From contig CAJFTG010000001.1 in the NCBI GenBank assembly GCA_904419875.1, positions 1 to 64,000 on the forward strand: a stretch of DNA of 64,000 nt, in the 5' to 3' direction. Source of the stretch: Candidatus Avimonas caecicola (lineage in GTDB: Bacteria > Bacillota > Clostridia > Oscillospirales > Acutalibacteraceae). The notes beneath the pieces were generated by a model. That model saw only the letters and a list, made by a program, of their open reading frames with translations. It had not been told where the DNA came from and ran no database searches. The position numbers were made by a program, and so were the translations under genes. Positions 17,914-39,070 of this stretch are shown here, piece by piece (within the stretch, counting starts at the first letter, position 1; every line of letters begins with the position of its first letter).

Positions 17914-17945
17914 GGCGGGCCCGCTTTACGCAAACGCCCCGGCGG

Positions 17946-21644: not shown

Positions 21645-21716
21645 GTTGACGACCCTTTCTTTCCCAGGTGGTGCCGGACCATGCGGCCCAAAGAGCGGGG
21701 CTCCGCCGGAGGACGG

Positions 21717-22535
21717 CTACTCGACAATCACGGTCAGCCAGGTAACGCCGGTATCCCCGCGGTCCTCCGCCGTGTACTTCACCTCATAGATGCCCGGCAC
21801 GGCGGTGTCCACCCCGGACTGCGCCGATACCCCGGCGGTGTCCAGGGCCGTCCCGTCCCCCCGGCTGACGGATTCCACCCAGGCGTCCGGGTCGAATTCC
21901 TCCCCGGCACGCAGATAAACCAGGTTCTGCTTCAGCACAATCTGGAGCCGCAGCTCCTCCCCGCCCACCACGTGAACCGGGAGCGCCGCCTGCGCCAGAT
22001 CCCCGTAAGAGTTGGACACCTCCACGTGCAGCGTATATTCCCCCGTCCGGGTATAGCTGACATTGCTTTCCGTAACACTCAGGAAAGGGGTGACATCCCC
22101 GTCCAGCATATCGGAGGCCCTCACATACGACGAGGCCGCGTCCCCCCGGCTTCCCTTTTCAAACACCAGCGGCTGGTCCAGCGAAAACTGCGGGGGACGG
22201 TAATCGGTAAACACCGCCGGCCGGACCAGGGTGGCGGGATGGCCGGAGGAGTCGAACACCACGTAGGTTATCGCGCAGGAGCCGTCCGACTGGAACCGGG
22301 AGATGCCGCCCACCAGGATCTGGCCGGTCAGGTCGCCGTCCTTCCCGTCCGAAGCGTAGAGGCCGGCGAGCAGCTCCTCCTCCGAAGCGGCGCAGGTCGT
22401 CTCCAGGATTTCCCGGTCGCTGGCAATCACCGGCAGGGTCATGTCCTGCCGGGCCCGCTCGCTGTAACGGGAAACCCCGTAAACCGCCAGGGACAAGACA
22501 AACAGCACAATCACGCCGATTCGGATACCTCTCAT
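21717..22535 (-). CDS. Membrane-anchored protein with Ig-like/bacterial cell-surface repeats, unknown function
   Basis: N-terminal TM (GIRIGVIVLFVLSLAVYGVS) then repeats such as ASDMLDGDVTPFLSV...TGEYTLHVEVSNSYGD, VPGIYEVKYTAEDRGDTGVTWLTVIVE. Confidence 0.7.
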   Translation of the reverse strand: MRGIRIGVIVLFVLSLAVYGVSRYSERARQDMTLPVIASDREILETTCAASEEELLAGLYASDGKDGDLTGQILVGGISRFQSDGSCAITYVVFDSSGHPATLVRPAVFTDYRPPQFSLDQPLVFEKGSRGDAASSYVRASDMLDGDVTPFLSVTESNVSYTRTGEYTLHVEVSNSYGDLAQAALPVHVVGGEELRLQIVLKQNLVYLRAGEEFDPDAWVESVSRGDGTALDTAGVSAQSGVDTAVPGIYEVKYTAEDRGDTGVTWLTVIVE

Positions 22536-23074
22536 GAACAAACCTCCCTGTCCCCGCCTCGCCGGGTTGCACGGCGGGGGGACGACACATTGACACAGGC
22601 CGGGCGCGGCCCTTTGGCAGTAAGACGGGCGGCAGAGCCGCGCGGGCAAAAAGGAAGAGGGCGTTTATGCCTGCCGTTTCCACCGGTTTCCTCCAACGCG
22701 AAAAGGCACGCCAAAAGAGGAAGGCGCCCCGCCACCCGGCAGACAGGCCCGCACTTCGTCGGGCGGCTTCCCTTTGGCGAAATCCGGCCGGCCGCCTCGC
22801 CGCCGTTCGGCCGCCGGTCGATTCCATCCGCACAGCGGGCCCGCCTGTTTCCTTGACCACACTGCCGCAGGCATCCGGGCGCCCCCGTCTGAACCGCCCG
22901 GCCTTTTTCGCGCCGTTTTCCTGTATGCGCCCTCCGCCGCGCCGCCGAAGAAGAAATACAGGCAGCGCCCGTCCCCTCCGGCAGCCGCTTTCCCATGGGA
23001 ACGGGCGCGCATCGGCCGGCCGCCTTTCCAGGGGTTCGGCCCGTGCCCGGCCTTTATGGCGGTGGTTCCCGCCC

Positions 23075-24508
23075 TTATTTCTTCAGGGCTTCCCGGCGCC
23101 CCTCGGCGGGCCGCACAACCGGCTCGGCGGCGGTGACCTGCCCCTCCTGTACGCCCTCGGTGCTCTCCGGCATGAACAGGATTTTGACGGTGGCGAAAAG
23201 CAGCTTCAGGTCCTGCGCAACGGACTGGTTGGCGATATAGATCAGATCCATCTGCAGCTTTTCATAGGGACGGGTGTTGTATTTGCCGTAAATCTGGGCG
23301 TAGCCGGTCAGCCCCGCCTTGGCCTGCAGCCGCAGGCTGAATTCGGGCATCTCCGCCTCGTACTGGGCGGCAATCTCGGGCCGTTCCGGCCGGGGGCCGA
23401 CCAGGCTCATGTCCCCCTTAAGGATGTTGAGCAGCTGAGGCAGCTCATCCAGCCGCACCTTGCGGATAAACCGGCCGACCGGGGTAATGCGGTCGTCCCC
23501 TTCCGCGGCGAGCCGGGCGACGCCGTCCTTCTCCGCGTCCACCCGCATACTGCGGAATTTCAGAATGTCGAAGCGCCGTCCGTCCTTGGTCAGCCGGGTC
23601 TGCCGGTAGAAGGCCGGGCCGCCGTCATACAGCCGGATGGCCAGCGCCACACCGGCCATCACCGGGCTGAAAACCACCAGCGTAACGCCGGACAGGAGGA
23701 TGTCCAGCCCCCGTTTGATTCCCAGATAGAGCAGGGAGGTGCGGTTGCGTCCGCAGTGCAGGACCGGCACATTCGACAGCTGGAGCTGTGTGGAACCGCT
23801 GACCAGCAGGTCCCCGATCTTCGGCCGGATGTACACCTGGATGTTGCGCTCAACGCAGTATTTCAGCACCGTGTTGCGGTCGCTGGAATGCAGGCCGCAC
23901 AGGAAGACCGCCTCCGCCTCCCCGTCCTCCAGCCGGCGGAACACCTCCTGCACGCCGTCGGAAATGTCCAGCTCCCCCCGGATGAGGAATTTCCGCCGTA
24001 TCTTTTTCACGTCGTCGATCTCCCAGCAGACCTCCGGGCGGTCGTAAATGATATAGGTGCGCCGCGGGGGGAAAAGCGCCCGGGACAGCCGGTCCGCCGC
24101 CAGCGCCCACAGCAGGTTGACCAGGCACCCGGCGGCCAGCAGCCCCAGCAGCGCCAGCGGATTCATAAGGCGGCACGCCGCCAGGCAGAGCAGCAGATAC
24201 TCGAAGAAAAGCGTCAGGAACTGCGCCACTCCCAGGGAATACACGATTTCCGGCACAGAGGAATTCCCGGCCTGGAATCCCCCGTATACCCCCGCCAGCA
24301 CCTTGAAAAGAACCAGATACGCCGCAATCAGCCCCCAATGCCGGATATCCGCCGGCGAGGGGGAAAGCCGCCCGGCGTAAAACAGAAACCATGTTCCGCC
24401 GAACAGAGCCGTTTGGAAAAGGACCAGAACCGCTTTGGCCAGGCTCATCAGAGCATTCCGCGCGGAGACCTCCGCGCTGCTCAGCCGCCGTGCTTTTTGC
24501 TGTGCCAT
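23075..24508 (-). CDS. Exopolysaccharide polyprenyl glycosylphosphotransferase (priming sugar transferase, CpsE/WbaP-like)
   Basis: IKRGLDILLSGVTLVVFSPVM, RQTRLTKDGRRFDILKFRSM, GRFIRKVRLDELPQLLNILKGDMSLVGPRPERPE. Confidence 0.95.
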   Translation of the reverse strand: MAQQKARRLSSAEVSARNALMSLAKAVLVLFQTALFGGTWFLFYAGRLSPSPADIRHWGLIAAYLVLFKVLAGVYGGFQAGNSSVPEIVYSLGVAQFLTLFFEYLLLCLAACRLMNPLALLGLLAAGCLVNLLWALAADRLSRALFPPRRTYIIYDRPEVCWEIDDVKKIRRKFLIRGELDISDGVQEVFRRLEDGEAEAVFLCGLHSSDRNTVLKYCVERNIQVYIRPKIGDLLVSGSTQLQLSNVPVLHCGRNRTSLLYLGIKRGLDILLSGVTLVVFSPVMAGVALAIRLYDGGPAFYRQTRLTKDGRRFDILKFRSMRVDAEKDGVARLAAEGDDRITPVGRFIRKVRLDELPQLLNILKGDMSLVGPRPERPEIAAQYEAEMPEFSLRLQAKAGLTGYAQIYGKYNTRPYEKLQMDLIYIANQSVAQDLKLLFATVKILFMPESTEGVQEGQVTAAEPVVRPAEGRREALKK

Positions 24509-24600
24509 CTCTCCACATACCTCTTTCTGCCGACAGCCTTGTTATCCACAATCCCACCGTTTTATCCCACAATCCCGCCGCCGGGTTCCTCCGCGCGGCG

Positions 24601-25245
24601 TCAGCCGAAGAACCGCTCCTCCAGCATCAGGCACAGGCAGTGGTACACCGGCAGATGCAGCTCCTGCACCCGGTAGGTCTCGGTTTCCGGCACCGCGATC
24701 GCGATGTCCGCGAACCGTGCCAGCTCGCCGCCGCCCGCGCCGGTCAGCCCAATCACCCGCATCCCCACCGCGCGGGCCGTGACCGCCGCATACATCACGT
24801 TTTTCGAGTTGCCGGAGGTGGAAATCCCCAGCAGCACGTCCCCCTCGGCACCGTAGCCGTAAACCTGCTGGGCAAAGCTTTCCAGCCCGTTCACGTCGTT
24901 CATGAACGCGGTGCTCAGCGCGCTGTGATTGGTCAGGGCGATGGCCGGCAGGCCGCCCTGCAAATCCCGCGCCAGCTCCTCCCCTCGCGTCCGGTCCACG
25001 GCGGTCAGCCGTTCCCGGAACGCGGGGGACGGCTCCCGCTTTTTCTTGAAGCCCTTCATCAGCTCCCCGACGATATGCTCCGCGTCGGCCGCGGAGCCGC
25101 CGTTCCCCGCCACCAGCAGCTTGCCGCCGCCCGCGTAGCACCTCTCCAGCGCCCCGTACGCCGCGGCGACCGCTTCCCGCACGCTTTCCAGCGCCGGGTA
25201 CCGTTCCATCAGCAGCTCCAGCTGCCGCCAAACCGATGATTCCAT
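24601..25245 (-). CDS. gmhA: Phosphoheptose isomerase-like SIS-domain protein
   Basis: LLVAGNGGSAADAEHIVGELMKGF, LGISTSGNSKNVMYA, IGLTGAGGGEL; adjacent to HddC/GmhB and HddA homologues. Confidence 0.88.
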   Translation of the reverse strand: MESSVWRQLELLMERYPALESVREAVAAAYGALERCYAGGGKLLVAGNGGSAADAEHIVGELMKGFKKKREPSPAFRERLTAVDRTRGEELARDLQGGLPAIALTNHSALSTAFMNDVNGLESFAQQVYGYGAEGDVLLGISTSGNSKNVMYAAVTARAVGMRVIGLTGAGGGELARFADIAIAVPETETYRVQELHLPVYHCLCLMLEERFFG

Positions 25246-25374
25246 GCGTCACTCATCCTCGTATAATAAGATTTGCAGACGGTTTTCAGTGGGTCTGCTT
25301 AGTTCACTTATAAAAGCTCGGCGGGCGTTGGAATACCCGCGATGCAGCAGCCGCCGGACGGCGGGGACGTTCGG

Positions 25375-26688
25375 TCACTTTCCGCTTATTTTCAGAATAT
25401 CGTCCACCGCCGCCGCCAGGTCGGGATACCCCGGCCGCCCCTGCGCGTCCCTTTCCCCAAGGAAAGCCGTGCGGCAGCCCGCCGCCCTCCCGGCCTCCAT
25501 ATCGCTTTCCGTATCCCCGACCATCCAGGAGGCGCCGAGATCGATCTGCAGGTCCTCCGCCGCCCGCAGCAGCAGGCCGGGCTTCGGCTTGCGGCAGGCG
25601 CAGTCGATTTTGTATTCCGGCCGCTCGCCGGGGTACCCGCCGTCCGGGTGATGGGGGCACACGTAAATGCCGTCCAGATACGCCCCTTCCCGGCCCAGCA
25701 GGGTTTCCATCTTGTTGTGGATCTCCCGCAGCCCCGCCGGCGTCACCTCGCCGCGGGCGATGACCGGCTGGTTGGTCGCCACAACGGCCAGAATACCGGC
25801 CTGGTTCAGCCGGCGGACGGCCTGTCCCACGCCGGGCAGCAGCTCGAATTCCTCCGGCCGCCGGAGAAAGCCGGCATACCGGTTGACCGTCCCGTCCCGG
25901 TCCAGGAAAACCGCCCGCTGCTTGAAGCGCAGGTTTTTCGCCCGCACCCGGCCGGCGCGCAGGTCCTCCGAAGCTGCCTCCAGCCGGTCCGGCGTGCCCA
26001 TGTCCATCACGTATTCGGGGGAATCGTAGGCGTACAGCCCGCCGGAGGGGATCAGAGGCTTCAGGACCTCCCTGTCCAGGTCCATCTTCTTGAGCTCCCG
26101 GAACAGGCCGAATTCCGGTGAAAAAATCCGGCCGGACAAAAAGTGCAGTCCCGCGTTGACCCGGTTCTGGACCCACAGCCGCTTGTCCTCCCTGTGCAGC
26201 CAGTTCTGCACCCGGCCGGTCTCGTCCGTCACCAGGATGCCGCTGTCGTACGGATGGCTGTTGGGGTGGGTGAACAGGGTCGCCAGGCCGCCGTGCGCCT
26301 TGTGCGCCCGGTAGAACCGGCTGATGTCGACGTCGAACAGAATATCGCCGTTGAGCAAAAGGAAATCCCCCTGGGACAGCTCCTCCCGCAACAGGTACAG
26401 CGCCCCCGCCGTGCCCAGCGGCTCGGTTTCCTCCACATACGCGATATGTACGCCGAACGGCTTCCCGTCCGCCGGCGAAATACCGGAGCCATCCCCGAAG
26501 TAGCGCCGGATTACATGGCCGAGATACCCGATCACCAGCACCACGTCGGTAAAGCCCTGCTCCCGGAGCGCGTCAATCTGGCGTTCGAGGACCGGCTTTC
26601 CCAGAAGAGGGATCATGGGCTTGGGGATTTCCGAATGCACCGCGGCGATCCGCGTCCCCCTGCCGCCCGCCATAACGACGGCCTTCAT
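25375..26688 (-). CDS. Fusion: sugar nucleotidyltransferase (HddC-like) + HAD heptose bisphosphate phosphatase (GmhB-like)
   Basis: N-term MKAVVMAGGRGTRIAAVHSEIPKPMIPLLGKPVLERQI; C-term RAVFLDRDGTVNRYAGFLRRPEEFELLPGV...CPHHPDGG...DCACRKPKPGLLL...WMVGDTESDMEAG. Confidence 0.9.
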   Translation of the reverse strand: MKAVVMAGGRGTRIAAVHSEIPKPMIPLLGKPVLERQIDALREQGFTDVVLVIGYLGHVIRRYFGDGSGISPADGKPFGVHIAYVEETEPLGTAGALYLLREELSQGDFLLLNGDILFDVDISRFYRAHKAHGGLATLFTHPNSHPYDSGILVTDETGRVQNWLHREDKRLWVQNRVNAGLHFLSGRIFSPEFGLFRELKKMDLDREVLKPLIPSGGLYAYDSPEYVMDMGTPDRLEAASEDLRAGRVRAKNLRFKQRAVFLDRDGTVNRYAGFLRRPEEFELLPGVGQAVRRLNQAGILAVVATNQPVIARGEVTPAGLREIHNKMETLLGREGAYLDGIYVCPHHPDGGYPGERPEYKIDCACRKPKPGLLLRAAEDLQIDLGASWMVGDTESDMEAGRAAGCRTAFLGERDAQGRPGYPDLAAAVDDILKISGK

Positions 26689-27701
26689 GCGCCTTCCTCC
26701 TCCTTGGTCAGCGGATAGCTTTCCGGCACGTAATACAGCACCCGGGTGCCTCCGTTTTCGAACCGGAAAGGCACCTCCATCAGCCCGTGCAGCGCCGCAC
26801 GCACGCTTTCCCTCCGCTCCTTGCGTACATAGAACAGCAGGAAGCCCCCGCCACCGGCCCCCAGCAGCTTTCCGCCGAGCGCGCCGGCGGCGACCGCTTT
26901 CTGATAAAGGGCGTCGATGGAATCGGTGGAAATCCGGCTGCCCGTCTGCCGCTTGAGCTTCCACGTATGATCCAGCAGCCGCCCGAAATCGTCCAGGTCG
27001 GCCTCGTTGTCCTCCATCACCTTCTGCGCCTCGTCCACCAGGCGGTACATTTCCATCAGCTGCGCGGTCTTGTCCCCGATGGAGCGCTGGGTGGATTCCT
27101 GAATGTCGGAGGAGAAACGGGAGAAACCGGTGAAAAACAGCATCAGGCTGTCGTTCAGCCTCTCCTTGCGCTCCGGGCTGATAATTACCGGCGTGACCTC
27201 GTAGCCCTGCGCGGAAAAATCGATGCGGTTCAGCCCGCCGAAGGCCGCCGCGATCTGGTCCTGCACGCCGCCGGCTTCGCGGCAGAGCTCCCGCTCCAGA
27301 TAAATGGCTTCGTCGGCCAGGCGGCGCTTGCCTGCAAATTCCCCTTTGAGGGAATGGAAGGCGCTGAGCATCCCGACCGCAAAGCTGCTGCTCGTCCCCA
27401 ATCCGGTGCGGGCCGGGAGATCCGCCTCATAGGTCAGGCGGATCTCCCGCATGTCCAGCATCCGCATCGCCTCCCGGATCGCCGGGTGCTGAATCTGCTC
27501 CAGGTCGGTGACCCGCTCGGTCTTCGCGTAGGACAGCTCGGTGGAATAATCGAAAAAGCGGGGCAGATGGCGGACGTTGACATAACAGTACTTGTCAAAG
27601 GTGGTGGACAGCACCGCGCCGCCGTGCTCGTTATAAAACGCGGGCATGTCCGTGCCGCCGCCGAAAAACGACATGCGGAACGGGGTTTTTGTGATAATCA
27701 C
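26685..27701 (-). CDS. hddA: GHMP kinase, D-glycero-D-manno-heptose 7-phosphate kinase-like
   Basis: TPFRMSFFGGGTDMPAFYNEHGGAVLSTTFDKYCYVNV, ARTGLGTSSSFAVGMLSAF, GALGGKLLGAGGGGFLLFYV. Confidence 0.88.
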   Translation of the reverse strand: MIITKTPFRMSFFGGGTDMPAFYNEHGGAVLSTTFDKYCYVNVRHLPRFFDYSTELSYAKTERVTDLEQIQHPAIREAMRMLDMREIRLTYEADLPARTGLGTSSSFAVGMLSAFHSLKGEFAGKRRLADEAIYLERELCREAGGVQDQIAAAFGGLNRIDFSAQGYEVTPVIISPERKERLNDSLMLFFTGFSRFSSDIQESTQRSIGDKTAQLMEMYRLVDEAQKVMEDNEADLDDFGRLLDHTWKLKRQTGSRISTDSIDALYQKAVAAGALGGKLLGAGGGGFLLFYVRKERRESVRAALHGLMEVPFRFENGGTRVLYYVPESYPLTKEEEGA

Positions 27702-28870
27702 GGTTTTGCACTTCCCTTCATCTTGGTCAGGACCCGGTCTAAGACCGCCCAGTTGCGGTCCGCCTCCCGCGCCAGCTGCGGAACGTTTTCGTCAAGTGTC
27801 TGCCGGATGGCCGCTTTCTCTGCAAGCGCCCGGTACACGGCCTTCCGGAAACGGTCGGCGTCAAACGCGATCCTTCGGCGGTAGTACTGCCCGCCGCCGA
27901 TGCAGACGCGCACCAGGTAATCGGACAGCCCCAGCCTCTCCGCCGCGTCGTCCAGCTTGTCGCTGTAGGCGATCGCGACGCCGGGGACGCGCAGGCACGA
28001 CGCCAGCACCAGCGCGTGAAACCGCATGCAGATGCAGACCTCGGCGCTTCCCAGCTCTTTCAGGATATCCGCCGGATGTTCAGGGAACGGGGAAAGCCGA
28101 ACCGCATCCGGGTTGTCGAGGTATTCCAGAGCCTCCCGGCTGAAGCGGTCGTCCTTCCGGTCGGTAAAGGTGAGCAGCCGGAGGGCATATCCCCGGCCGG
28201 TCAGCTCGTTGAGGACCCCGGACAGCCCTTTCAGGAAAGCCTTCCTCTCGGTGGCCGCGTCCCCGAAAATATCGGCGAGGGCCACAGCGACCGTCCCGGC
28301 CTGGGCAGGGCGGCGTTCCGGCGGCTTTGTGCCGAACAGTACGTCGCCCGCCTCCACAAGACGGTCTTCCCGTTTCTGCGGCAGCCGTACTCCCGCCTTC
28401 ACGCCCTGCTGACGGGCTGCGAAACCGTCGGCATGGACAATCAGGTTCCGCAGCAGGAACCGGCCGAGGCCCGTGCGGAAGTTTTCGCTTCCGACGCCCA
28501 GCCCGATGAACGCCATGCGGTGCCCCCAAAGCTTGGAAACGGCCAGCAGCAGGTTCCAGAACAGCAGCTTGCCCGTGTTCCTGTGCGGAAAAAGGCCGCC
28601 CGGCCCGCAGACGACCAGGTCCGCTTTCCGGCAGGCGGAAAACGAGGCCCGCACCGACCGGGGAAGGACCGCCGCCTCCATCCCGGCAGGTACAAGGCGG
28701 AGGACATCCCGGCTGTTGGAAAATATCCATATTTCCGCGGCGGGCTGCCGCTTTTGAAGAAATCGCAGGAGCTCATAGAGAATATAATCGTCGCCGACAT
28801 TGCGTTCGCCGTAAAAACCCCAGCACGCAATGACCGGCGGCTCCGCCCGCTTCCGCCGCTTGCGTCTCAT
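27698..28870 (-). CDS. Polysaccharide pyruvyl transferase (CsaB-like)
   Basis: WGFYGERNVGDDYILYELLRFL, VVCGPGGLFPHRNTGK, FIGLGVGSENF, CICMRFHALVLASCLRVPGVAIAYSDK. Confidence 0.85.
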   Translation of the reverse strand: MRRKRRKRAEPPVIACWGFYGERNVGDDYILYELLRFLQKRQPAAEIWIFSNSRDVLRLVPAGMEAAVLPRSVRASFSACRKADLVVCGPGGLFPHRNTGKLLFWNLLLAVSKLWGHRMAFIGLGVGSENFRTGLGRFLLRNLIVHADGFAARQQGVKAGVRLPQKREDRLVEAGDVLFGTKPPERRPAQAGTVAVALADIFGDAATERKAFLKGLSGVLNELTGRGYALRLLTFTDRKDDRFSREALEYLDNPDAVRLSPFPEHPADILKELGSAEVCICMRFHALVLASCLRVPGVAIAYSDKLDDAAERLGLSDYLVRVCIGGGQYYRRRIAFDADRFRKAVYRALAEKAAIRQTLDENVPQLAREADRNWAVLDRVLTKMKGSAKP

Positions 28871-30261
28871 TTCCTTTTCCCCTCCCCTCTCCACTTCCGC
28901 AACGCCGCCCTGACCCGCAGCCGGACATCCCGGCGGATAAGCAGAATCCCTCCGGTCAGGGCGATGCAGGCGCCGCAGCTCAGAACCAGCGCCGGGAAAC
29001 TGTCTCCGAGGTTCAGCAGGCGCACCGTGAGGCAGACCGCCGCCGCGGGAAGCCACAGCAGGCAATACTGGAAAATCGAGATCGGCGCCTTTTTAAACCA
29101 GCGGCACACCAGGAAATATTTGAAAACCCCTTCGGCAATCGCCTGCGCGCACAATCCGTACAGCGCGAAAAAGCGGTTTCCCCGCATCACAAACCAGATC
29201 AGGAACATCAGGGCGATCGTGCCCCAGCGCATACGGTTTTCCAGCTTTTCCTGCCCGGTCATCTGCATCAGCCCCGCCCCCGGCCCCAGGCTGGCCACCA
29301 GCAGGAAGCCGGCCGCCACCATGCGGAACAGCGGCGCCTGATCCAGCAGCTCCGGGCTGAAAAGCCGCAGGACCAGCTCGGAAAAGCCGAGCAGCGTCAC
29401 GGCCACGGCGGAGACAAACAGCATCTGAATCTGGATGATGGTCCGGAAAAACCGCCGGATCTCCTCCACCTTGTTCTGCCTGTACAGCCGCGAAAATTCC
29501 GGCAGGAAAATCTTCGCCGTCGGCCCGCTGATAAAATTGACCAGCTTTTTGACGACGATCACGATGCCGACAAAGCCGGTCTCGTACGCGCCGACGAACA
29601 GATACTGCAGTATCACCGGCGCCTGCCCGATCAGCCCATAGGCCATGTCCGACTGCTGATACTGCCAAAGCTTGCCGAGGCTCACCGGCTCCTCCCGCCG
29701 GTTTGGCAGCGCGATTTTTTTCCGGTGCAGCCGGAACCAGAGGAGAACGACCCCGTATTGCAGCCCGTACAGAAAAAGCAGCCAGCCCAGCTGCTCCAAT
29801 CGCAGGGCGAGGAAAACCGAGAGGAGCAGGATAAACACCACCCGCCCGACGAGGTATTCGCCCGCCAGGAAGGTCATCCCCCGGCCGCGGGCCAGGAATT
29901 CGCTGCTTTGGTCGAACGCGAAGAAGTACAGAACCAGCGCGCCGGCGGACAGCAGGTACATCCACTGCCGGGAAACGATGCTGAGCACGCAGAACACGGC
30001 CAGGACCGGCAGCATGTACCGGCAGTAATACTTTCTTTTGAAGCGGGCGATGCTGACGCCGTTGTCGGCCAGGTAAAAGGTGTTGCACTTGACAAGGCCG
30101 GAAAAAAGAAGCCAATAGGCAATTTCAATGGCGTTGACATAGAAGGAATAGTTCCCATAGCCCGTTACCCCGATGGTCCGGGTAATCAACAGCTGGATAA
30201 CCAGCTCCAGAACGGCGGAAGCCGCCTTGATGCCCACGCTGGAAATAAGCAGTCTAATCAC
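28867..30261 (-). CDS. Wzx-type polysaccharide flippase
   Basis: 464 aa polytopic membrane protein; MIRLLISSVGIKAASAVLELVIQLLITRTIGVTGYGNYSFYVNAIEIAYWL. Confidence 0.85.
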   Translation of the reverse strand: MIRLLISSVGIKAASAVLELVIQLLITRTIGVTGYGNYSFYVNAIEIAYWLLFSGLVKCNTFYLADNGVSIARFKRKYYCRYMLPVLAVFCVLSIVSRQWMYLLSAGALVLYFFAFDQSSEFLARGRGMTFLAGEYLVGRVVFILLLSVFLALRLEQLGWLLFLYGLQYGVVLLWFRLHRKKIALPNRREEPVSLGKLWQYQQSDMAYGLIGQAPVILQYLFVGAYETGFVGIVIVVKKLVNFISGPTAKIFLPEFSRLYRQNKVEEIRRFFRTIIQIQMLFVSAVAVTLLGFSELVLRLFSPELLDQAPLFRMVAAGFLLVASLGPGAGLMQMTGQEKLENRMRWGTIALMFLIWFVMRGNRFFALYGLCAQAIAEGVFKYFLVCRWFKKAPISIFQYCLLWLPAAAVCLTVRLLNLGDSFPALVLSCGACIALTGGILLIRRDVRLRVRAALRKWRGEGKRK

Positions 30262-31532
30262 AATAGCTCCCTCTGTATCCGGCGGCCCCGTTCGGCATCA
30301 GAGGTATGTGCCGAACAAAACCGCGGTAATACCACAATGACCAGTGTCGCCGTCCACTGGTTCAAGCCGACCTCGAACAAGAGCAGGGATTCAAAGCAGC
30401 CCAGCACGAGGAAGGACAGAACGGCGGCCGTCAGCAGCCGCTTGTTCTCTCTGCCCACTTCCGCCCTCTTTATGCGAACAAACACGGATACAAAGACCCC
30501 CGCATACAGCAGACAGCCGGGAAAGCCGTACGACGCCAGAATCTCCAGATAGGCATTGTCGATCTGCTCAATCCCGTTGAGGAGCAGCAGCTCCTTAAAC
30601 AGCGCGGGAGAAACGCCCCAAAGCCCGTATTCCCGCTGCCTCAGGGTATCCAGCAAAGCCCCCCACCGGTCGGTCCGCCCCGAATCCCCGAAATTCGACC
30701 GAATCAGGAACCGGTCGATCATCCCCCGCAGATCGGTTGTGAAATAAAGCAGCAGGAACGCCGCCAGCAGGACCAGAAGAAGAAGCACTTTTTTGGGGCG
30801 GCGGATATCCAACCAATATAGGCCGAAAAAGACGGCGGCGGAAAGCATCGCGGCGCGGGAGAAGGTGAAAAACAAATTCACGGCCAAAAGGAAGAATACG
30901 GCGGGATGAACCCTCGCGCCGAAAAGGTGCTTGAGCAGCATACAGCAGATCAGGCACAGATACAGGTACCACCCGAACTGATTCCGCCCGAGAAACAGGC
31001 CGGTAAACTTTACGCTGTACACCTGGGTAACCGCGGCAAGGCTGAATACGCCGTCATAATTCTGAACAATATTGACCACCGAAGAAAGCAGCCCGAAGCC
31101 GACAATCGCCTTGAGCGCAGACTCCAGCATTTCCCGGGTAAAAAGAAGATGGCGCGCCGCGAATATCAGGAAAAGCATCCCCAGGCCGACAAGGGTGTTG
31201 GCGTCATAAACCACGTCGCTGCGCGCACGGAGCGAGCCGAAATTCAGCACCAGGAGCAAGGCGGCCCACAGGGCGACAAGCAGGAAAGCCGCTCCCGCCT
31301 TCCGCCGTATCTTGATGTCGAAAGCCGCCAGACACCACAGCAAAAAGACGGCGAAAACAGCAATGGAGAAGATCGTCGGATAGATTTCCCTGCCTGGCAG
31401 CACACCCAGAAAGATCAATATATACGGCAGCATGAGCAGACACGTGAAGTTTCTCAAAACCGTATTCTTTTGTCCTGAAAGCTGGCCGCGCCCTGCAAAC
31501 GCGCGACCGCTTGCGTACAGGGACCGTTCCAT
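30258..31532 (-). CDS. O-antigen ligase/Wzy polymerase-like membrane protein
   Basis: Polytopic; YSVKFTGLFLGRNQFGWYLYLCL...FTFSRAAML...SNFGDSGRTDRWGALLDTL...DNAYLEILASYGFPGCLLY. Confidence 0.82.
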   Translation of the reverse strand: MERSLYASGRAFAGRGQLSGQKNTVLRNFTCLLMLPYILIFLGVLPGREIYPTIFSIAVFAVFLLWCLAAFDIKIRRKAGAAFLLVALWAALLLVLNFGSLRARSDVVYDANTLVGLGMLFLIFAARHLLFTREMLESALKAIVGFGLLSSVVNIVQNYDGVFSLAAVTQVYSVKFTGLFLGRNQFGWYLYLCLICCMLLKHLFGARVHPAVFFLLAVNLFFTFSRAAMLSAAVFFGLYWLDIRRPKKVLLLLVLLAAFLLLYFTTDLRGMIDRFLIRSNFGDSGRTDRWGALLDTLRQREYGLWGVSPALFKELLLLNGIEQIDNAYLEILASYGFPGCLLYAGVFVSVFVRIKRAEVGRENKRLLTAAVLSFLVLGCFESLLLFEVGLNQWTATLVIVVLPRFCSAHTSDAERGRRIQRELL

Positions 31533-31572
31533 GCCTACCCTCCCCCATGCCGGCACGTGTTCTCCGGCGGAC

Positions 31573-32799
31573 TCAAAGCCGTGCGGCGCCGGAAACGCCA
31601 TCCGACGCTTCGGGTTGAGCGGATGCGCAGATCAACGATTCCCACCTGCTCCACAAGACCTCCCATGTGTACCGGGTCCGTATCAGTTCCCGCGCGCTGT
31701 CCCCCACCTGCCTGCACAGCGGCGGGGAATCCAGCAGCCGGGAAAGCTGCTCCACGTAATCCTCCGCCCGTTCCGCCGCCAGATAATGAACGCCGTTCTG
31801 CCCGCCGAGCCCTTCCGCCGCGATCGGGGAAAGCACAGTCGGCGTGCCGACCGCCATGCTCTCCAGCACCTTGTTCTGCATCCCCGCTCCGTTGCGAATG
31901 GGCACCACCGTCGCCACGCAGGCCGCCATGCGTTCGAACGGATTTTCCAAAAAACCGGTCACCGTCACTCCGTCCAGCCGCTCCAGTTCGCAAACCGCCT
32001 TGGACGGCTCAATTCCCATAATGACAAAGCGAACGTCCGGGTACCGTTCCCTCAACTGCGGAAACACGTTGTGGCAAAACCACACAACCGCATCCTCGTT
32101 CGGCTGATAGGACATCTTTCCCAGAAAGCAGATCTCCCTGGCGGCAGTCCCATACACCGTTTTTCGGGCGGCAATGTCGTCCCGCACCGCAACCGGGATT
32201 ACGGAAAGCCTCGCCGTATCTGCGCCGTGCTTTTGCAGATATGCTTTATCGTCCTCGGAAATGATAACCGCTTTGCGGAATGCCTTCGCCGTGTCGCGTT
32301 CGTACCGCAGCACCCGCCGGTATTCCGTCCGGTAAACCCACTTTTTCAATCCCTTGGTGCAGCGGACGGCATTTTCATAGTTATAGGAAATCGCATCGTG
32401 AAAATCCAGAATCGTTTTGGCGGGGTCGATTTTCCTTAAATATTCGGCCGTGCGGATGGTGTTGCCGATCACCACATCGTAGCCGCCCTCCAGCCGTTCC
32501 AAGGTTTTCCGTAGTTGTCTGTTTATGTATAATGCCACCTGAAAAGGCTTGGAGGGCGTGAACAGGCATTTGAACAGGTTGAAGAGCGCTTCAGCCCGTC
32601 GGAAGGGGACGACATGAACCTCGTGAAACACCTCCGCCAGCTGAGCCTTATACCTTTCATACTCCTCCGGCTTTCCCAGATACAGCAGTCCGACCTGATG
32701 GCCGGCCCTTCGGCAATATTTCGCTTCGTTATAAATCCGGATGCGGAACCCCGCCGTAAGTGGATAGGGGATCCGGCTGGAAACCATCAGTATCTTCAT
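31573..32799 (-). CDS. Glycosyltransferase family 4 protein, first gene of the EPS operon
   Basis: MKILMVSSRIPYPLTAGFRIRIYNEAKY..., FLGKMSYQPNEDAVVWF, VVPIRNGAGMQNKVLESMAVGTPTVLSPIAAEGL. Confidence 0.92.
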   Translation of the reverse strand: MKILMVSSRIPYPLTAGFRIRIYNEAKYCRRAGHQVGLLYLGKPEEYERYKAQLAEVFHEVHVVPFRRAEALFNLFKCLFTPSKPFQVALYINRQLRKTLERLEGGYDVVIGNTIRTAEYLRKIDPAKTILDFHDAISYNYENAVRCTKGLKKWVYRTEYRRVLRYERDTAKAFRKAVIISEDDKAYLQKHGADTARLSVIPVAVRDDIAARKTVYGTAAREICFLGKMSYQPNEDAVVWFCHNVFPQLRERYPDVRFVIMGIEPSKAVCELERLDGVTVTGFLENPFERMAACVATVVPIRNGAGMQNKVLESMAVGTPTVLSPIAAEGLGGQNGVHYLAAERAEDYVEQLSRLLDSPPLCRQVGDSARELIRTRYTWEVLWSRWESLICASAQPEASDGVSGAARL

Positions 32800-32955
32800 T
32801 GTCCTCTCTCCCGTTTTCTACATTCTGAACGCGCATTGCCGCAGGGCACAGCGTAAAAGAACCAAGGGGACTCCTTTTTCGTACAATTTCTTGGTAACCG
32901 GGGATGTATACTGTACCTTTAGAAAACCCAATTCATTGGAAAGGGGTGCAAAGCT

Positions 32956-33072
32956 TTGTTGGTTTTTCTTTTTTCAGCGGCGGCAGCCGCAGCGCTGTGT
33001 GTGCTTCTCACCCTCGCCTGTATGCTCGCCGTCCGCCGTCCCGAAGAGGAACTGCCCTCTAACCGGGGCTGA
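32956..33072 (+). CDS. Possible 38-aa single-TM peptide
   Basis: TTG start preceded by an AAGGGGTG RBS-like motif; MLVFLFSAAAAAALCVLLTLACMLAVRRPEEELPSNRG*. Confidence 0.35.
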   Translation: MLVFLFSAAAAAALCVLLTLACMLAVRRPEEELPSNRG

Positions 33073-33120
33073 GCCAAAAGGCACGGGCCCGGTCGCCCCT
33101 CCGCTGACAGAAAGCCGACA

Positions 33121-33140
33121 GGACAAAATTTTTATTTTGT
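33121..33140 (+). repeat. Inverted repeat IR-L1 of invertible cassette
   Basis: GGACAAAATTTTTATTTTGT; exact 20-nt inverted match to 33430-33449. Confidence 0.9.
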
Positions 33141-33146
33141 GGCCAA

Positions 33147-33164
33147 GACAAAATTTTTATTTTG
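33147..33164 (+). repeat. Second left copy IR-L2
   Basis: GACAAAATTTTTATTTTG; direct repeat of 33122-33139 at 25-bp offset. Confidence 0.88.
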
Positions 33165-33236
33165 CCTTATAACGCTTTCAAAAACTATATAAGTCCTATA
33201 TATTTGGAAGCAAATGGCAATATAAATCAACAAAAG

Positions 33237-33302
33237 GCGCACGTATAAAGGGCCGTCTCAAAAAAGCTTCGCGACGGCCTTCTATGCGTGCGCAAATTTT
33301 TC
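33237..33302. terminator. Bidirectional intrinsic terminator inside the invertible cassette
   Basis: Arms 33237-33257 GCGCACGTATAAAGGGCCGTC and 33273-33293 GACGGCCTTCTATGCGTGCGC: 21-bp stem, 18 Watson-Crick, 2 wobble, 1 mismatch; + side followed by AAATTTTT, - side followed by CTTTTG. Confidence 0.8.
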
Positions 33303-33311
33303 AAGAAAAGG

Positions 33312-33340
33312 TTGTTTTTTACATTCCGATCTGCTATAAT
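33312..33340 (+). promoter_or_regulatory. Extended -10 promoter inside the invertible cassette, pointing right as assembled
   Basis: TTGTTT (33312-33317), 17-nt spacer, TGC-TATAAT (-10 at 33335-33340). Confidence 0.7.
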
Positions 33341-33429
33341 AAGCCAAGTTTCTCGATCTTCCGCCTTCTGCAGAGGAAAAATGACGGCGTGGTTTCCCTA
33401 AAGGGGAATTTTGCCGTATGTACTTTGCG

Positions 33430-33449
33430 ACAAAATAAAAATTTTGTCC
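33430..33449 (-). repeat. Inverted repeat IR-R of invertible cassette
   Basis: ACAAAATAAAAATTTTGTCC, reverse complement of IR-L1; ends 7 nt before the recombinase stop codon. Confidence 0.9.
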
Positions 33450-33455
33450 CGGTTT

Positions 33456-34301
33456 CTAACTGACCAGGCCCAGCCTCTCCAGCTGCCTGGCGTGTTCCAC
33501 CCCGGTGGAAATCAAGTAAAGGCGGGTGGTCTCCACGCTGGAATGCCCCAATACGTCGGCCAGCTTCACAACATCCCGGCAGGCATTGTAAAAGGTGCGG
33601 GCAAACAGATGGCGCAGGTTGTGGGGGAACACTTTCGACGGCGCCACGCCGGCCCGGCCGCAGAGGGCTTTCATCTGGGCCCAGATCTGCTTTCTGGCCA
33701 TTGTCCTTCCTCTTTTGGTGAGAAAAATCTCACCGGAAGAGATTTTTTGTTTTTTGGCGTATTTCAGCAGCTTGCGGCACAGCTTGGGCGGAAGGAGAAT
33801 GGTGCGGATTTTCCCCTTGAGAGAAATGTCCGTCCGGCCCCGGCAGGCGGCGGCAACCGTGATGTACCGCACCTCGGACACGCGGATTCCGGTTGCGCAG
33901 ATCGTCTCCATCAACAGCGCGAGCCGTTCCCTTCCCTCCCCGCGGGCAGTCTCCAGCAGCGTTTGATACTCCTCCCGGGTCAATTCCTTTTCCTCCTGCC
34001 GGAACAGCGGCTTCTGGATACGCAGATAGCCGACCCGGCACCCGGCCCGGCCCATGATGAAGAAAAATTTGTTGACGGCCGCCAGCATGGAGTTCACCGT
34101 GGCCGGCCGGTACTGCTTTTCGAGCAGATGTTCCCGCCATGCGGCCGCCGCTTCCCCGGACGCGGGACGGCCCGCCAGCCATTCGGCAAACGCCCGCACG
34201 TCGCGGAGGTATTTTTCGATGGTCCCCCGGCCGCGGTCCTCCCCCCGCAGCTTTTCCCCAAACAGGCGGATTTCCTGCGGCCCAATACTGTTTCCGTTCA
34301 T
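33456..34301 (-). CDS. Tyrosine-type site-specific recombinase (catalytically intact), predicted inverter of the adjacent cassette
   Basis: ATG at 34301 with AAGGAGG RBS; catalytic set present: R in ATGIRVSEV, K in SLKGKIRT, HxxR in PHNLRHLFA, H in VLGHSS, Y in ETTRLYL. Confidence 0.93.
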   Translation of the reverse strand: MNGNSIGPQEIRLFGEKLRGEDRGRGTIEKYLRDVRAFAEWLAGRPASGEAAAAWREHLLEKQYRPATVNSMLAAVNKFFFIMGRAGCRVGYLRIQKPLFRQEEKELTREEYQTLLETARGEGRERLALLMETICATGIRVSEVRYITVAAACRGRTDISLKGKIRTILLPPKLCRKLLKYAKKQKISSGEIFLTKRGRTMARKQIWAQMKALCGRAGVAPSKVFPHNLRHLFARTFYNACRDVVKLADVLGHSSVETTRLYLISTGVEHARQLERLGLVS

Positions 34302-34555: not shown

Positions 34556-35536
34556 ATGATACGAAAGGAAATTCTCGAAAAGCTTCTGCCGGTCACGCCG
34601 GAGGAGAAGCGGCTTCTGGACGGCGCGCGCGCCATCGACCGCAGCCTCTACATGGATGAAGGCGCGGATATTGTCAACAGCCGGAAGCTGCTGAAATCCG
34701 GCCGGCTGATTACCGTGCGCCCCCACACCCGTTTCGTCCGTTTTCCGGAGCATACGCACGATTACGTAGAGGTCATTTACATGTGCGCGGGACAGACCAC
34801 CCACATTGTCAACGGGGAGCAGGTCCTTCTCCGGGAGGGAGAGCTGCTTTTCCTGAGCCCCGGCGCCCGGCAGGAGATCCTGGCCGCCGGCAGAGAAGAC
34901 ATTGCCGTCAACTTCATCATCCTTCCGGAATTTTTCGACAGCCCGCTCCGGATGATGGGGGACGAGGAGACGCCGCTGCGCCGTTTCCTGGTGGACTGCC
35001 TGAAAAACCGCGGCGGGGCGGCGGGATACCTTCATTTTGAGGTCGCGGACGTACCGCCCGTCCAGAATCTGGTGGAAAACCTGATCTGGACGCTCATCCA
35101 CGACGCGCCGAACAAACGGAAGATCAACCAGCTGACCATGGGGCTGCTTTTTCTGCAGCTGCTCAATCACACGGACCGCCTGGTCTGCCGCGACCCGAAG
35201 GAGGAAGCGGTGATGCAGGCGCTCCGCTATATCGAGGACCATTACCGGGACGGCAGCCTGCGGGAGCTGTGCGAATGGCTGCACCAGGATTTCTGCTCCT
35301 TTTCCCGGGAAATCAAGCGGAAAACCGGGAAGAATTACACCGATCTGGTGCAGGAAAAGCGGCTCTCGCAGGCCGGCTTTCTGCTGCGGACCACGGACAT
35401 GACCGTCAGCGATGTCGCCCTTCAGGTCGGCTATGACAACATGAGCTACTTTCACCGCCTGTTCCGGGAAAAATACCACCGCACGCCGCGGCAGTACCGG
35501 CTGTCCGAGCCGAAGGATGCGGCCGCCTATCCGTGA
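34556..35536 (+). CDS. AraC-family transcriptional regulator, likely rhamnose-responsive
   Basis: Cupin-like N-domain (HTHDYVEVIYMCAGQTTHIVNGEQVLLREGELLFLSPG), C-terminal HTH (DMTVSDVALQVGYDNMSYFHRLFREKYHRTPRQYR); upstream of rhaBAD genes. Confidence 0.9.
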   Translation: MIRKEILEKLLPVTPEEKRLLDGARAIDRSLYMDEGADIVNSRKLLKSGRLITVRPHTRFVRFPEHTHDYVEVIYMCAGQTTHIVNGEQVLLREGELLFLSPGARQEILAAGREDIAVNFIILPEFFDSPLRMMGDEETPLRRFLVDCLKNRGGAAGYLHFEVADVPPVQNLVENLIWTLIHDAPNKRKINQLTMGLLFLQLLNHTDRLVCRDPKEEAVMQALRYIEDHYRDGSLRELCEWLHQDFCSFSREIKRKTGKNYTDLVQEKRLSQAGFLLRTTDMTVSDVALQVGYDNMSYFHRLFREKYHRTPRQYRLSEPKDAAAYP

Positions 35537-35561
35537 TACGGAAAGCTGAACGGGCACCTGC

Positions 35562-35600
35562 AAAAAAGGACGCTTTTTTTCCAAAAAAGCGTCCTTTTTT
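35562..35600. terminator. Intrinsic terminator between AraC gene and rhaB
   Basis: AAAAAAGGACGCTTTTTT-tcc-AAAAAAGCGTCCTTTTTT, 18-bp perfect stem. Confidence 0.9.
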
Positions 35601-35646
35601 CTTCGGCGAGGAGATGGTACAATGGCCTTGAAAGGGGGCTTTCACC

Positions 35647-37020
35647 TTGTACGATTATCTTGCCATCGACATCGGCGCTTCGGGCGGCCGCCATATCCTC
35701 GGCTGGGTGGAGAAGGGGCGTTTGCGTCTGGAAGAGGTCTACCGCTTCCCCAACGGCGCCGTCCAAACGGACCGGGGATTGGTCTGGGATACGGAGGCGC
35801 TGGTGCGGGAGGTGCGCAAGGGAATCCGCCGCTGCGGGGAGCTGGGAAAAGCGCCGCGGACGGTCGCCATCGACACCTGGGGCGTGGACTACGTGCTGCT
35901 GGACGGGGACGGGAAGGAGCTGTTCCCCGCCTACGCCTACCGCAACGACCGCACCCTCGCCGTCCGGGAGCAGGCGGAGGAGCGCCTGCCCTTCCCGGCG
36001 CTGTACGCCCGCACCGGCATCCAGCGGCAGGATTTCAACACCGTCTATCAGCTGTTCTGCGACCGGCTGGCGGGCCGGCTGGACCGGGCGGCACATTTTC
36101 TGATGATCCCGGACTATCTGGCCTACCGCCTGACCGGCCGGATGAAAAACGAGTACACCAACGCCACCACCACCTCCCTGGTCAACGCGGAGACCGGCGG
36201 CTGGGACAAAACCGTCCTGGAGCGGTTCGGGCTTCCGTCCTCCCTGTTCCTGCCGCTGAGCCAGCCGGGGGAAGCCGTGGGGGAATTCACGGACGAAATG
36301 AGCGGGTATGCCGGTTTCCGCGCCCGCGTCGTCCTCTGCCCGACGCACGACACCGCCAGCGCGGTGGCGGCCTGTCCGCTGGACGGCCGCAGCGTCTATA
36401 TCTCCTCCGGCACCTGGAGCCTGGTGGGGACAGAGCGGGAAACCCCCGCGATCTCGGAGGAAAGCCGGCGGTATAATTTCACCAACGAGGGCGGGATCGG
36501 CCGCCGCTTCCGGGTGCTGAAAAACATCATGGGCACCTGGCTGTTCCAGAACATCCGCCGCTCCCTCGGCGGCGGATGCAGCTATGACGAAATGATGGAA
36601 CTGGCCATGCGCAGCGGACGCCCGGCGAGGTTTGACGTCAACCATCCGTCCCTGACCGCGCCGGCCGACATGCTGGCGGCGGTCAAAAGCCTGCTGGGAC
36701 GGCCGGAGGCCGGGACGGGAGAGCTTCTCAACAGCGCCTATCATTCCCTGGCCTCCGCCTATGCGGAGGCGGTGCGGGAGCTGGAGGAAATCACCGGCGA
36801 AAAAATGGGCCGCGTTGTGATCGTGGGCGGCGGGAGCAGGGACGCCTACCTCAACCGCCTGACCGCGCAGTATACGGGCCTTCCCGTCTGCACCGGCCTG
36901 CAGGAGGCCACGGCCACAGGGAATATCCTGTCCCAGCTCATGGCGGACCGGGGCCTCGGCCTGCGGGAGGCGCGGGAACTGGTGCAGGCATCTTTTGATC
37001 TCAAGGAGGAACAGGCATGA
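35647..37020 (+). CDS. rhaB: Rhamnulokinase
   Basis: FGGY kinase; LAIDIGASGGRHILGWVE, IDTWGVDYVLLDGDG, CPTHDTASAVAACPLDGRSVYISSGTWSLVGTE. Confidence 0.93.
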   Translation: MYDYLAIDIGASGGRHILGWVEKGRLRLEEVYRFPNGAVQTDRGLVWDTEALVREVRKGIRRCGELGKAPRTVAIDTWGVDYVLLDGDGKELFPAYAYRNDRTLAVREQAEERLPFPALYARTGIQRQDFNTVYQLFCDRLAGRLDRAAHFLMIPDYLAYRLTGRMKNEYTNATTTSLVNAETGGWDKTVLERFGLPSSLFLPLSQPGEAVGEFTDEMSGYAGFRARVVLCPTHDTASAVAACPLDGRSVYISSGTWSLVGTERETPAISEESRRYNFTNEGGIGRRFRVLKNIMGTWLFQNIRRSLGGGCSYDEMMELAMRSGRPARFDVNHPSLTAPADMLAAVKSLLGRPEAGTGELLNSAYHSLASAYAEAVRELEEITGEKMGRVVIVGGGSRDAYLNRLTAQYTGLPVCTGLQEATATGNILSQLMADRGLGLREARELVQASFDLKEEQA

Positions 37021-38258
37021 ACCGTTATGAAAGCGCTAAAGAATGGTACGCCCGGTACGGCGTGGATACCGAGGCGGCGATGGCCGTGCTGCAAAACGTC
37101 CCGGTTTCCCTGCACTGCTGGCAGGGGGACGACGTTATCGGTTTCGACCAGAAGGGGGCTCTCTCCGGCGGCATCCAGACCACCGGCGATTACCCCGGAC
37201 GCGCGCGGAACCCGGAGGAGCTGATGGCGGACATCGACAGGGCGTTCGGCCTGATTCCGGGGAAAAAGAAGCTGAATCTTCACGCAAGCTACGCCATTTT
37301 TGAGGACGGGGAGTTTGCCGACCGCGACCGCATCCAGCCCCGGCACTTCGCCAAATGGGTGGAATTTGCCCGGGCACGGGGATGGGGGCTGGATTTTAAC
37401 CCCACCTTCTTTTCCCACCCGATGGCCAAGGACAGCCTGACGCTCTCCTCCCCCGACGAGCACGTCCGCCGTTTCTGGGTGGAGCACGGAAAGCGCTGCC
37501 TGGAAATCGCCCGGTATTTCGCGGAGCAGACCGGCCTTCCCTGCGTCATGAACATCTGGATTCCGGACGGGTACAAGGATATCCCGGCCGACCGGCTGGG
37601 GCCGCGCGCCCGGTTTAAGCAGTCGCTGGACGAGATCCTGTCGGTCCCCTACGACAGGGAGAAGGTGTTCGTCTGCCTGGAATCCAAGGTGTTCGGCATC
37701 GGGCTGGAATCCTACACGGTGGGCAGCGCGGAATTCGGCATGGGGTACGCGGCGCAGAAGGGGATCGTCCCGCTGATGGACAACGGCCACTACCATCCGA
37801 CCGAGGCGGTGTCCGACAAGATCTCCTCCCTGCTGCTGTTCCACGACCGGCTGGCCCTGCACATCACCCGCCCCGTGCGCTGGGATTCCGACCATGTGGT
37901 CCTGTTCGACGACGAAACCCGGGAAATCGCCCGGGAGGTGGTGCGCTGCGGAGCGCTCGACCGGGTGTTCCTGGCGACCGATTATTTTGATGCGTCCATC
38001 AACCGCATCAGCGCCTGGGTCACCGGCGGTCGGAGCGTGCAGAAGGCGCTGCTCTTCGCCCTCCTTCAGCCCAACGAGGCAATGAAGGCGATGCAGGACA
38101 GCGGCGATTTCACCTCCCTGATGGTGCTGCAGGAGGAGATGAAGACGCTGCCGTTCGGCGACATATGGGCGGAGTACCTTGCCCGCCAGCAGGTGCCGGC
38201 GGAGTATCTGCCGGAAGTGCGGAAATATGAAAAGAAGGTTTTGGAGGCACGGCAATGA
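37017..38258 (+). CDS. rhaA: L-rhamnose isomerase
   Basis: YARYGVDTEAAMAVLQNVPVSLHCWQGDDVIGFD..., LNLHASYAIFEDGEFADRD; ATGA overlap with rhaB. Confidence 0.96.
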   Translation: MNRYESAKEWYARYGVDTEAAMAVLQNVPVSLHCWQGDDVIGFDQKGALSGGIQTTGDYPGRARNPEELMADIDRAFGLIPGKKKLNLHASYAIFEDGEFADRDRIQPRHFAKWVEFARARGWGLDFNPTFFSHPMAKDSLTLSSPDEHVRRFWVEHGKRCLEIARYFAEQTGLPCVMNIWIPDGYKDIPADRLGPRARFKQSLDEILSVPYDREKVFVCLESKVFGIGLESYTVGSAEFGMGYAAQKGIVPLMDNGHYHPTEAVSDKISSLLLFHDRLALHITRPVRWDSDHVVLFDDETREIAREVVRCGALDRVFLATDYFDASINRISAWVTGGRSVQKALLFALLQPNEAMKAMQDSGDFTSLMVLQEEMKTLPFGDIWAEYLARQQVPAEYLPEVRKYEKKVLEARQ

Positions 38259-39070
38259 AAGATATTCTCACAGCCCCCTTTGTCAGGGAAATGGCTGAAA
38301 CCACGGCCAACATGTACCGGCTCGGCTGGGACGAGCGCAACGGCGGAAACATCAGCTGCCTGCTGGATGAAGCAGAGGCGGCGGAATACCTGGACCTCGG
38401 CCGCGTGCTGCGCACCATCCCGACCGGCTTTGACGCCGGGCCGCTGAAGGGAAAGCTCCTGATCGTCACCGGCACGGGAAAATACTTCAAAAACGTGCAG
38501 AAGGACCCGGAAACCAACCTCGGCGTCATCCGCATCGCGCAGGACGGGACCACGGCGGAGCTGCTGTGGGGCTATGCCGACGGCGGCCGGTTTACCAGCG
38601 AGCTGCCCGCCCACCTGATGAGCCATATGGCCCGGCTTTCGGTGGACCCGGAAAACCGCGTGGTCATGCACAGCCACCCCACCCATACCCTGGCGATGAA
38701 CTATGTCCATGAACTGGACGAGCGGGCGCTCACCCACACCCTGTGGGAGATGTGCACGGAATGCATCGTGGTATTCCCGGACGGCGTGGGCGTGCTGCCG
38801 TGGATGCTTTGCGGGACGAATTCCATCGGGGAAGCAACGGCGGAAAAAATGAAGCAGTACCGCCTGGTCGTCTGGGGGATGCACGGCATTTACGGCGCGG
38901 GCCGAACCATGGACGAAACCTTCGGCCTGATCGAGACGGTGGAAAAGGCGGCGCAGATTTACATGCTCACCTGCGGCCGCCCGCGGCTCAACACCATCCG
39001 GGACGACCAGCTTCAGGAAATTGCCGAAGCCTTCGGCGTCAATTACCGCCGGGACTTCCTGAACCTGTAA
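38255..39070 (+). CDS. rhaD: Rhamnulose-1-phosphate aldolase
   Basis: GWDERNGGNISCLLDEAEA, VVMHSHPTHTLAM, MHGIYGAGRTMDETFGLIETVEKAA; ATGA overlap with rhaA. Confidence 0.95.
   Translation: MKDILTAPFVREMAETTANMYRLGWDERNGGNISCLLDEAEAAEYLDLGRVLRTIPTGFDAGPLKGKLLIVTGTGKYFKNVQKDPETNLGVIRIAQDGTTAELLWGYADGGRFTSELPAHLMSHMARLSVDPENRVVMHSHPTHTLAMNYVHELDERALTHTLWEMCTECIVVFPDGVGVLPWMLCGTNSIGEATAEKMKQYRLVVWGMHGIYGAGRTMDETFGLIETVEKAAQIYMLTCGRPRLNTIRDDQLQEIAEAFGVNYRRDFLNL

Follow-up and report, generated by a model that had tools for sequence, protein, structure and literature searches.

A Predicted Invertible Promoter/Terminator Switch Preceding an EPS Operon of Candidatus Avimonas caecicola, Its Clostridia Family, and a Catalytically Dead Recombinase Paralog

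The EPS Locus and Its Neighboring Recombinase

The window analyzed here is the whole stretch of 64,000 nucleotides that opens contig CAJFTG010000001.1 of Candidatus Avimonas caecicola. Its minus strand carries an EPS operon of 13 co-directional genes running from 32799 to 17041 (Table 1), three of which are putatively assigned to a heptose-like sugar-nucleotide pathway (HddA-, HddC/GmhB- and GmhA-like). To the right of the operon lies a segment bounded by inverted repeats, and the stop codon of a tyrosine recombinase gene is found 6 nt past the right repeat. Both neighbors had been recognized in the original prediction. The minus-strand EPS operon is confirmed, with the addition that its 13th gene, on which the prediction was silent, codes for a recombinase-like protein. 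That the enzyme adjoining the right repeat is intact is confirmed by its domains and by the presence of all six catalytic residues (RKHRHY). Further to the right, the plus strand (34556-39067) carries an AraC/RhaS-like regulator and L-rhamnose catabolic genes (FGGY kinase, RhaA, class II aldolase). No RNA family was identified anywhere in the window by comparison to Rfam.

Table 1. Coordinates of the annotated features in the window.
Feature	Position	Strand	Basis or details
Site S1, operon-proximal arm	33121-33140	+	18-bp core ACAAAAT-TTTT-ATTTTGT at 33123-33140
Site S2, direct copy of S1 (17/18 bases), 25 bases further inward	33148-33165	+	Sequence match
Site S3, recombinase-proximal arm, exact inverse of S1	33430-33449	-	Sequence match
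Predicted invertible segment, 289 bp between S1 and S3	33141-33429		Family inverted-repeat statistics and flipped orthologs
Strong bidirectional hairpin, predicted terminator	33237-33293	both	Folding energy
Predicted extended -10 promoter TTGTTT-17-TGCTATAAT	33312-33340	+	Best-scoring promoter of the segment
Second, weaker hairpin, then T run	~33372-33425	-	z = -2.9
Intact tyrosine recombinase, 281 aa, predicted invertase	33456-34301	-	Pfam Phage_integrase and SAM_1 (Phage_int_SAM_1)
First EPS gene, glycosyltransferase (TIGR03087/stp1-like)	31573-32799	-	Profile match
O-antigen ligase/polymerase (Wzy_C)	30258-31601	-	Profile match
Wzx-like flippase	28867-30261	-	Weak WZX_like match, far under family cut-off
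Polysaccharide pyruvyl transferase (CsaB-like)	27698-28963	-	Profile match
GHMP kinase (HddA-like; heptose pathway inferred)	26685-27701	-	Profile match
Nucleotidyltransferase-HAD phosphatase fusion (HddC/GmhB-like, inferred)	25375-26688	-	
SIS-domain isomerase (GmhA-like, inferred)	24601-25245	-	
Undecaprenyl-phosphate sugar transferase	23075-24508	-	EPS_sugtrans, over cut-off
Ig-like/PKD surface protein	21717-22535	-	
Wzz/tyrosine autokinase (eps_fam)	20208-21644	-	
Second Wzz/tyrosine-kinase-like protein	18692-20281	-	
CpsB/CapC tyrosine phosphatase	17946-18710	-	
Catalytically dead tyrosine-recombinase paralog, last EPS gene, 291 aa	17038-17913	-	Ends ...ELTIGWRV

Recombination Sites, Promoter and Hairpins

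The segment is delimited by an exact 20-bp inverted repeat (GGACAAAATTTTTATTTTGT at S1 and its perfect complement at S3). Its 18-bp core has three matches in the window at up to three mismatches, compared to 0.01 expected from shuffled sequences, and a pattern search through the whole 3.2-Mb genome found exact copies of the 17-bp core only at S1, S2 and S3. A genome-wide regulon of the adjacent recombinase is ruled out by this confinement of the three exact copies to the locus. Site S2, which is absent from the original prediction, lies inside the segment and is oriented like S1, so that two nested inversions are possible. Extra site copies are found likewise at L032, L036, L070, L079, L084, L085 and L086.

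The predicted extended −10 promoter is the highest-scoring one of the segment, reaching 14.0 with a simple σA matrix, on which roughly 95% of shuffled segments stay below 11.3. As assembled, it faces right, with the EPS operon behind it and the recombinase 3′ end ahead. A simple consensus scan omitted it because its −35 region is weak (3/6). Consensus scanning of the operon strand from 16600 to 33460 found only one other promoter-like site, a weak one at 33181-33153; promoters within the EPS operon may exist besides the one of the switch. The predicted terminator hairpin has a folding energy of −35.9 kcal/mol on the plus strand (z = −7.5) and of −34.1 kcal/mol on the minus strand (z = −6.2). 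The exact repeat, the extended −10 promoter and the strong bidirectional terminator had all been proposed before, and they are upheld, promoter and terminator as sequence predictions, by the site counts, by the score relative to shuffled segments and by the stable folding on both strands, respectively. A possible small membrane peptide (LLVFLFSAAAAAALCVLLTLACMLAVRRPEEELPSNRG) is encoded on the plus strand at 32954-33072, antisense to the predicted ON leader (see below), with a −10-like TATACT sequence upstream.

A Family of Related Switches in Clostridia

A scan of 85,462 species genomes yielded 80 named loci (L049-L128) with recombinases of 54-69% identity, mostly from Oscillospiraceae and Lachnospiraceae of gut samples; additional homologs of 45-51% identity were obtained from relatives of the genome. 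Counting was limited to the 85 homologs followed by 300 nt or more of sequence: an inverted repeat matching at 17-18 of 18 positions is found directly behind the recombinase gene in 57 of them, but 300 control windows drawn from those contigs contain none. The locus of the window is part of this switch family, some members of which have degenerate repeats. The family site consensus is ACARAAT-N4-ATTYTGT while the clade of 45-51% identity has mostly ACATAAT-N4-ATTATGT. When the paired sites of each locus are compared, the T-N4-A positions are 99-100% identical and the outer positions 71-96%, a pattern that is the sequence signature of a putative 6-bp crossover overlap. Palindromic spacers are rare (5 of 75 in the family), which defines the orientation of the sites and thereby makes inversion, rather than excision, the expected product. 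The catalytic R, K, H, R, H, Y set is complete in 86 of 86 active homologs.

The promoter predicted in each of 70 family segments points toward the downstream gene in 14 cases and away from it in 35, with no clear call for the remaining 21. In 60 of the 70 segments the promoter has the strongest hairpin upstream of it, so that promoter plus terminator represents the family design. This layout had been regarded as distinctive of the locus; it is instead the usual one in a Clostridia family of wide occurrence. The cargo encoded behind the switches, in dozens of gut genomes, comprises EPS, TasA-like fibre, pilin, giant surface-protein and restriction-modification genes, classes that are indicative only because the greedy ORF caller errs in GC-rich DNA.

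Three further active family members are encoded in the window's own genome, on contigs C3, C90 and C119. Repeats are clear at C3 and C119, and the C90 contig ends too soon for repeats to be judged. On C3 (L026, 3422-5270) the cassette, whose promoter is predicted to be ON, precedes a DNA-methyltransferase-like pair and is likely a phase-variable restriction-modification locus. On C119 (L028, 1099-5907) it precedes genes for a TasA-like fibre protein and a signal-peptidase-like protein. Another genome (G030) has at least seven family recombinases (contigs C1, C5, C7, C9, C11, C20 and C30), nearly all at or near contig ends, and short-read assemblies thus seem to break at these cassettes. One recombinase homolog (L037) has no detectable inverted repeat; a candidate cyclic-di-GMP-I riboswitch was recognized there by eye, downstream of 5784 on the minus strand.

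Flipped Segments in Related Genomes

Four comparisons of related genomes revealed a segment flipped between its repeats with collinear flanks. Between L082 and L100 the recombinase gene is collinear (84% identity), the segment is reversed (88%) and the downstream region is again collinear (86%). The segment of L095 is reversed relative to those of L074 and of L115, and the one of L096 relative to that of L120. Promoter calls switch as expected in the L074/L095/L115 and L096/L120 sets. The search for reversed copies in relatives, suggested in the original prediction as a check, has thus given a positive answer for the family through these four comparisons and none for the window's own locus: no second copy of it turned up when 12 genomes of the genus were searched at the DNA level, which makes a direct comparison of orientation there impossible.

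A Catalytically Dead Recombinase Paralog in the Operon

The product of the last EPS gene is 35% identical to the active recombinase, is devoid of the C-terminal tyrosine segment and has lost both catalytic His, the one of the HxxR motif and the second one, along with the Tyr nucleophile. None of the 35 members of the dead paralog family has any of these three residues. Relatives of the paralog from two genomes of the same genus are 65% and 52% identical, and more are found across the order, with scores well apart from those of active enzymes. One branch of a maximum-likelihood tree, supported at 100/100, splits 31 dead from 86 active proteins, making the dead family monophyletic. The dN/dS ratio ranges from 0.06 to 0.31 in four pairs of dead paralogs and the family is under purifying selection. 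A frameshifted pseudogene was ruled out as an explanation of the dead gene on the basis of these ratios and of the fully supported branch, as well as of the intact ORFs of 35 members and their conserved alternative C terminus (...E.EQL.VGW). In the AlphaFold model of the dead paralog (mean pLDDT 86, pTM 0.56) the core-binding domain is preserved, as is a portion of the catalytic fold, and the chain closes with a single long predicted helix (250-287); a Foldseek search with this model matched XerA, XerD and lambda integrase.

A dead paralog is encoded directly behind the inverton, mostly as the first gene, at 21 of the 80 named loci, and at least two copies are present in each of L074, L095 and L115. 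Among order-wide dead members, 8 of 14 are found co-directional and downstream of an active recombinase, at a distance of up to 16 kb. Inverted repeats (15-18 of 18 positions) were identified at all seven further loci checked. Dead members follow giant surface proteins at L197 and L198 and lie beside TasA-like or pilin-like genes at L161, L163, L164 and L196. Divergent members are found in flagellar/chemotaxis operons near flgK (L195, 14647-15450, directly behind a csrA-like gene; L199, 15879-16736), with no active recombinase in the stretch examined. At L200 (14287-16001) the dead paralog comes straight after a serine recombinase gene and ahead of a giant surface protein, and the stretch examined likewise contains no active recombinase of the family. 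The flagellar members and L200 imply that a dead paralog can exist without a neighboring active partner.

Being the last gene of the switched operon, the dead paralog of the window would be made only or mostly in the ON state. Its location, ancestry and conservation lead us to propose, tentatively and at somewhat less than an even chance, that it feeds back on the switch or on its promoter. There is also a considerable probability, short of one half, that the paralog has no connection with the switch and is either a passenger or a regulator internal to the operon, acting on surface genes and leaving the recombination sites alone. The divergent members described above, in flagellar operons or after a serine recombinase gene, fit this second reading, against which stand the position behind the inverton at 21 of 80 loci and the proximity of an active recombinase for 8 of 14 order-wide members. 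Promoter orientation at loci with the paralog (12 ON and 15 OFF) does not differ significantly from that at loci without it (11 ON and 31 OFF; p = 0.13, or 0.10 in the first-gene subset) and was for that reason kept out of the evidence.

Proposed Mechanism and Alternative Explanations

The segment of the window is, with high probability, a recombinase-driven invertible promoter/terminator switch. The tyrosine-recombinase-driven cassette that had been predicted from this one locus now has comparative support in the occurrence of the same layout in dozens of genomes and in the four flipped comparisons of other family members. Inversion at the window's locus, activity of its promoter and an ON/OFF consequence for EPS are predictions, and the operon is very probably switched by this segment. 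The assembled orientation should be EPS OFF since the promoter faces the recombinase 3′ end and the hairpin is predicted to stop leftward read-through; the earlier assignment of this state fits the predicted promoter direction.

In the proposed mechanism the recombinase would bind 18-bp sites composed of 7-bp arms and a 4-bp spacer, with crossover within the 6-bp T-N4-A overlap, leading to inversion of 33141-33429 or, via the inner site S2, of 33166-33429. In the OFF state the promoter would fire into the recombinase 3′ end and the central hairpin would block leftward read-through. After the flip the promoter would face left with the terminator behind it as an insulator, giving an ON transcript that would start with a leader of ~420 nt followed by the 13-gene EPS operon. 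This leader is long and was counted against the switch reading. The dead paralog would act as a DNA-binding regulator feeding back on the switch or the operon. A more ambitious view, which we advance with reserve as its chances are below even, is that of a three-part Clostridia module composed of an active invertase, a promoter/terminator inverton and a dead paralog made only in the ON state, which would bind the sites or the promoter as a memory of the switch, either holding ON or forcing OFF.

The switch might act mainly on the recombinase, antisense RNA from the OFF promoter damping its own reversal, with EPS control being secondary. The aim of the OFF promoter into the recombinase 3′ end, ~115 nt away, the family-wide placement of the repeat behind the recombinase stop codon and the higher frequency of OFF among assemblies (35 OFF versus 14 ON) are in line with this explanation. 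However, the antisense transcript is itself a prediction, the ON/OFF bias of assemblies can be explained otherwise, and EPS control and antisense action are compatible; we regard it as rather unlikely. A segment that was formerly invertible and is now fixed, with a silent recombinase or decayed sites and another promoter driving the operon, would agree with the presence of the locus in a single genome of the genus set. It is improbable given that the sites are perfect 20-bp inverses, that the recombinase has its full catalytic set, that the equivalent module is flipped between related genomes elsewhere and that the consensus scan of the operon strand shows only one other, weak promoter-like site. 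It is very unlikely that an ordinary regulator, which AT-rich palindromic sites would suit as well, binds the repeats, or that they are attachment sites for integration/excision by this Xer-like recombinase, because a non-palindromic spacer shared in inverted orientation points to inversion and not excision, flipped orthologs are known from the four comparisons and mobile-element cargo is absent between the sites.

Comparison with Known Systems

Invertible promoters preceding surface polysaccharide genes are already known, and PhaseFinder has detected invertible promoters (invertons) in gut bacteria. The predicted switch resembles in this respect the capsule promoters of Bacteroides (Mpi/UpxY type), which are invertible and found before surface polysaccharide operons. 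Mpi of Bacteroides is a serine recombinase that acts on many loci from a distance whereas the tyrosine recombinase described here adjoins its only exact genomic sites. No UpxY-type gene is found among the annotated genes of the EPS operon; UpxY enrichment is reported in a 2025 survey of a defined gut community (PMC11892184). The survey also describes a Clostridia inverton group, number 139, with 32 of its 33 members from Clostridia, whose link to group 35 of tyrosine-recombinase invertases is the strongest of its kind in that work (PMC11892184). One member, from Clostridium sp. D5 and with a span of 257 bp, shifted orientation over passages (PMC11892184). Group 139 shares with the present loci short inverted repeats, a segment of a few hundred bp, an adjacent tyrosine recombinase and the class Clostridia (PMC11892184). 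The two are probably the same family, on a comparison of class, recombinase type and span. The accessible text on group 139 differs in that it mentions neither an embedded terminator as a family feature nor a dead paralog (PMC11892184). The cwpV switch of C. difficile and its recombinase RecV offer a further parallel in Clostridia, with recombinase-driven inversion and a terminator that sets the OFF state; in that switch the promoter lies outside the invertible segment, while here the best predicted promoter is inside it together with the terminator (PMC2784873).

The best precedent for the dead paralog is MrpR, the master repressor of prophage SPbeta, a DNA-binding repressor with a tyrosine-recombinase fold that has lost catalysis (PMC10516654). 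By analogy, a regulatory role may be envisaged for the dead paralog, which likewise has a recombinase fold without the catalytic residues. MrpR is a phage repressor that retains the Tyr and Lys, whereas the dead paralog family lacks both His and the Tyr (35/35) and is found in chromosomal phase-variable surface operons (PMC10516654). No account of the dead paralog family, or of the embedded terminator as a family trait, was found in the searchable literature, which leaves out most subscription journals and supplements, and the chief apparent novelty is that a switched operon carries a dead paralog among its cargo. In the usual picture an invertible promoter consists of an enzyme and a pair of sites, and its switching rate is determined from outside. 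If the proposal is correct, a dead copy of the enzyme within the switched operon would add built-in feedback to that scheme and explain how random flips become biased or held, and given the large size of the family it would bear on the surface variation of commensal Clostridia.
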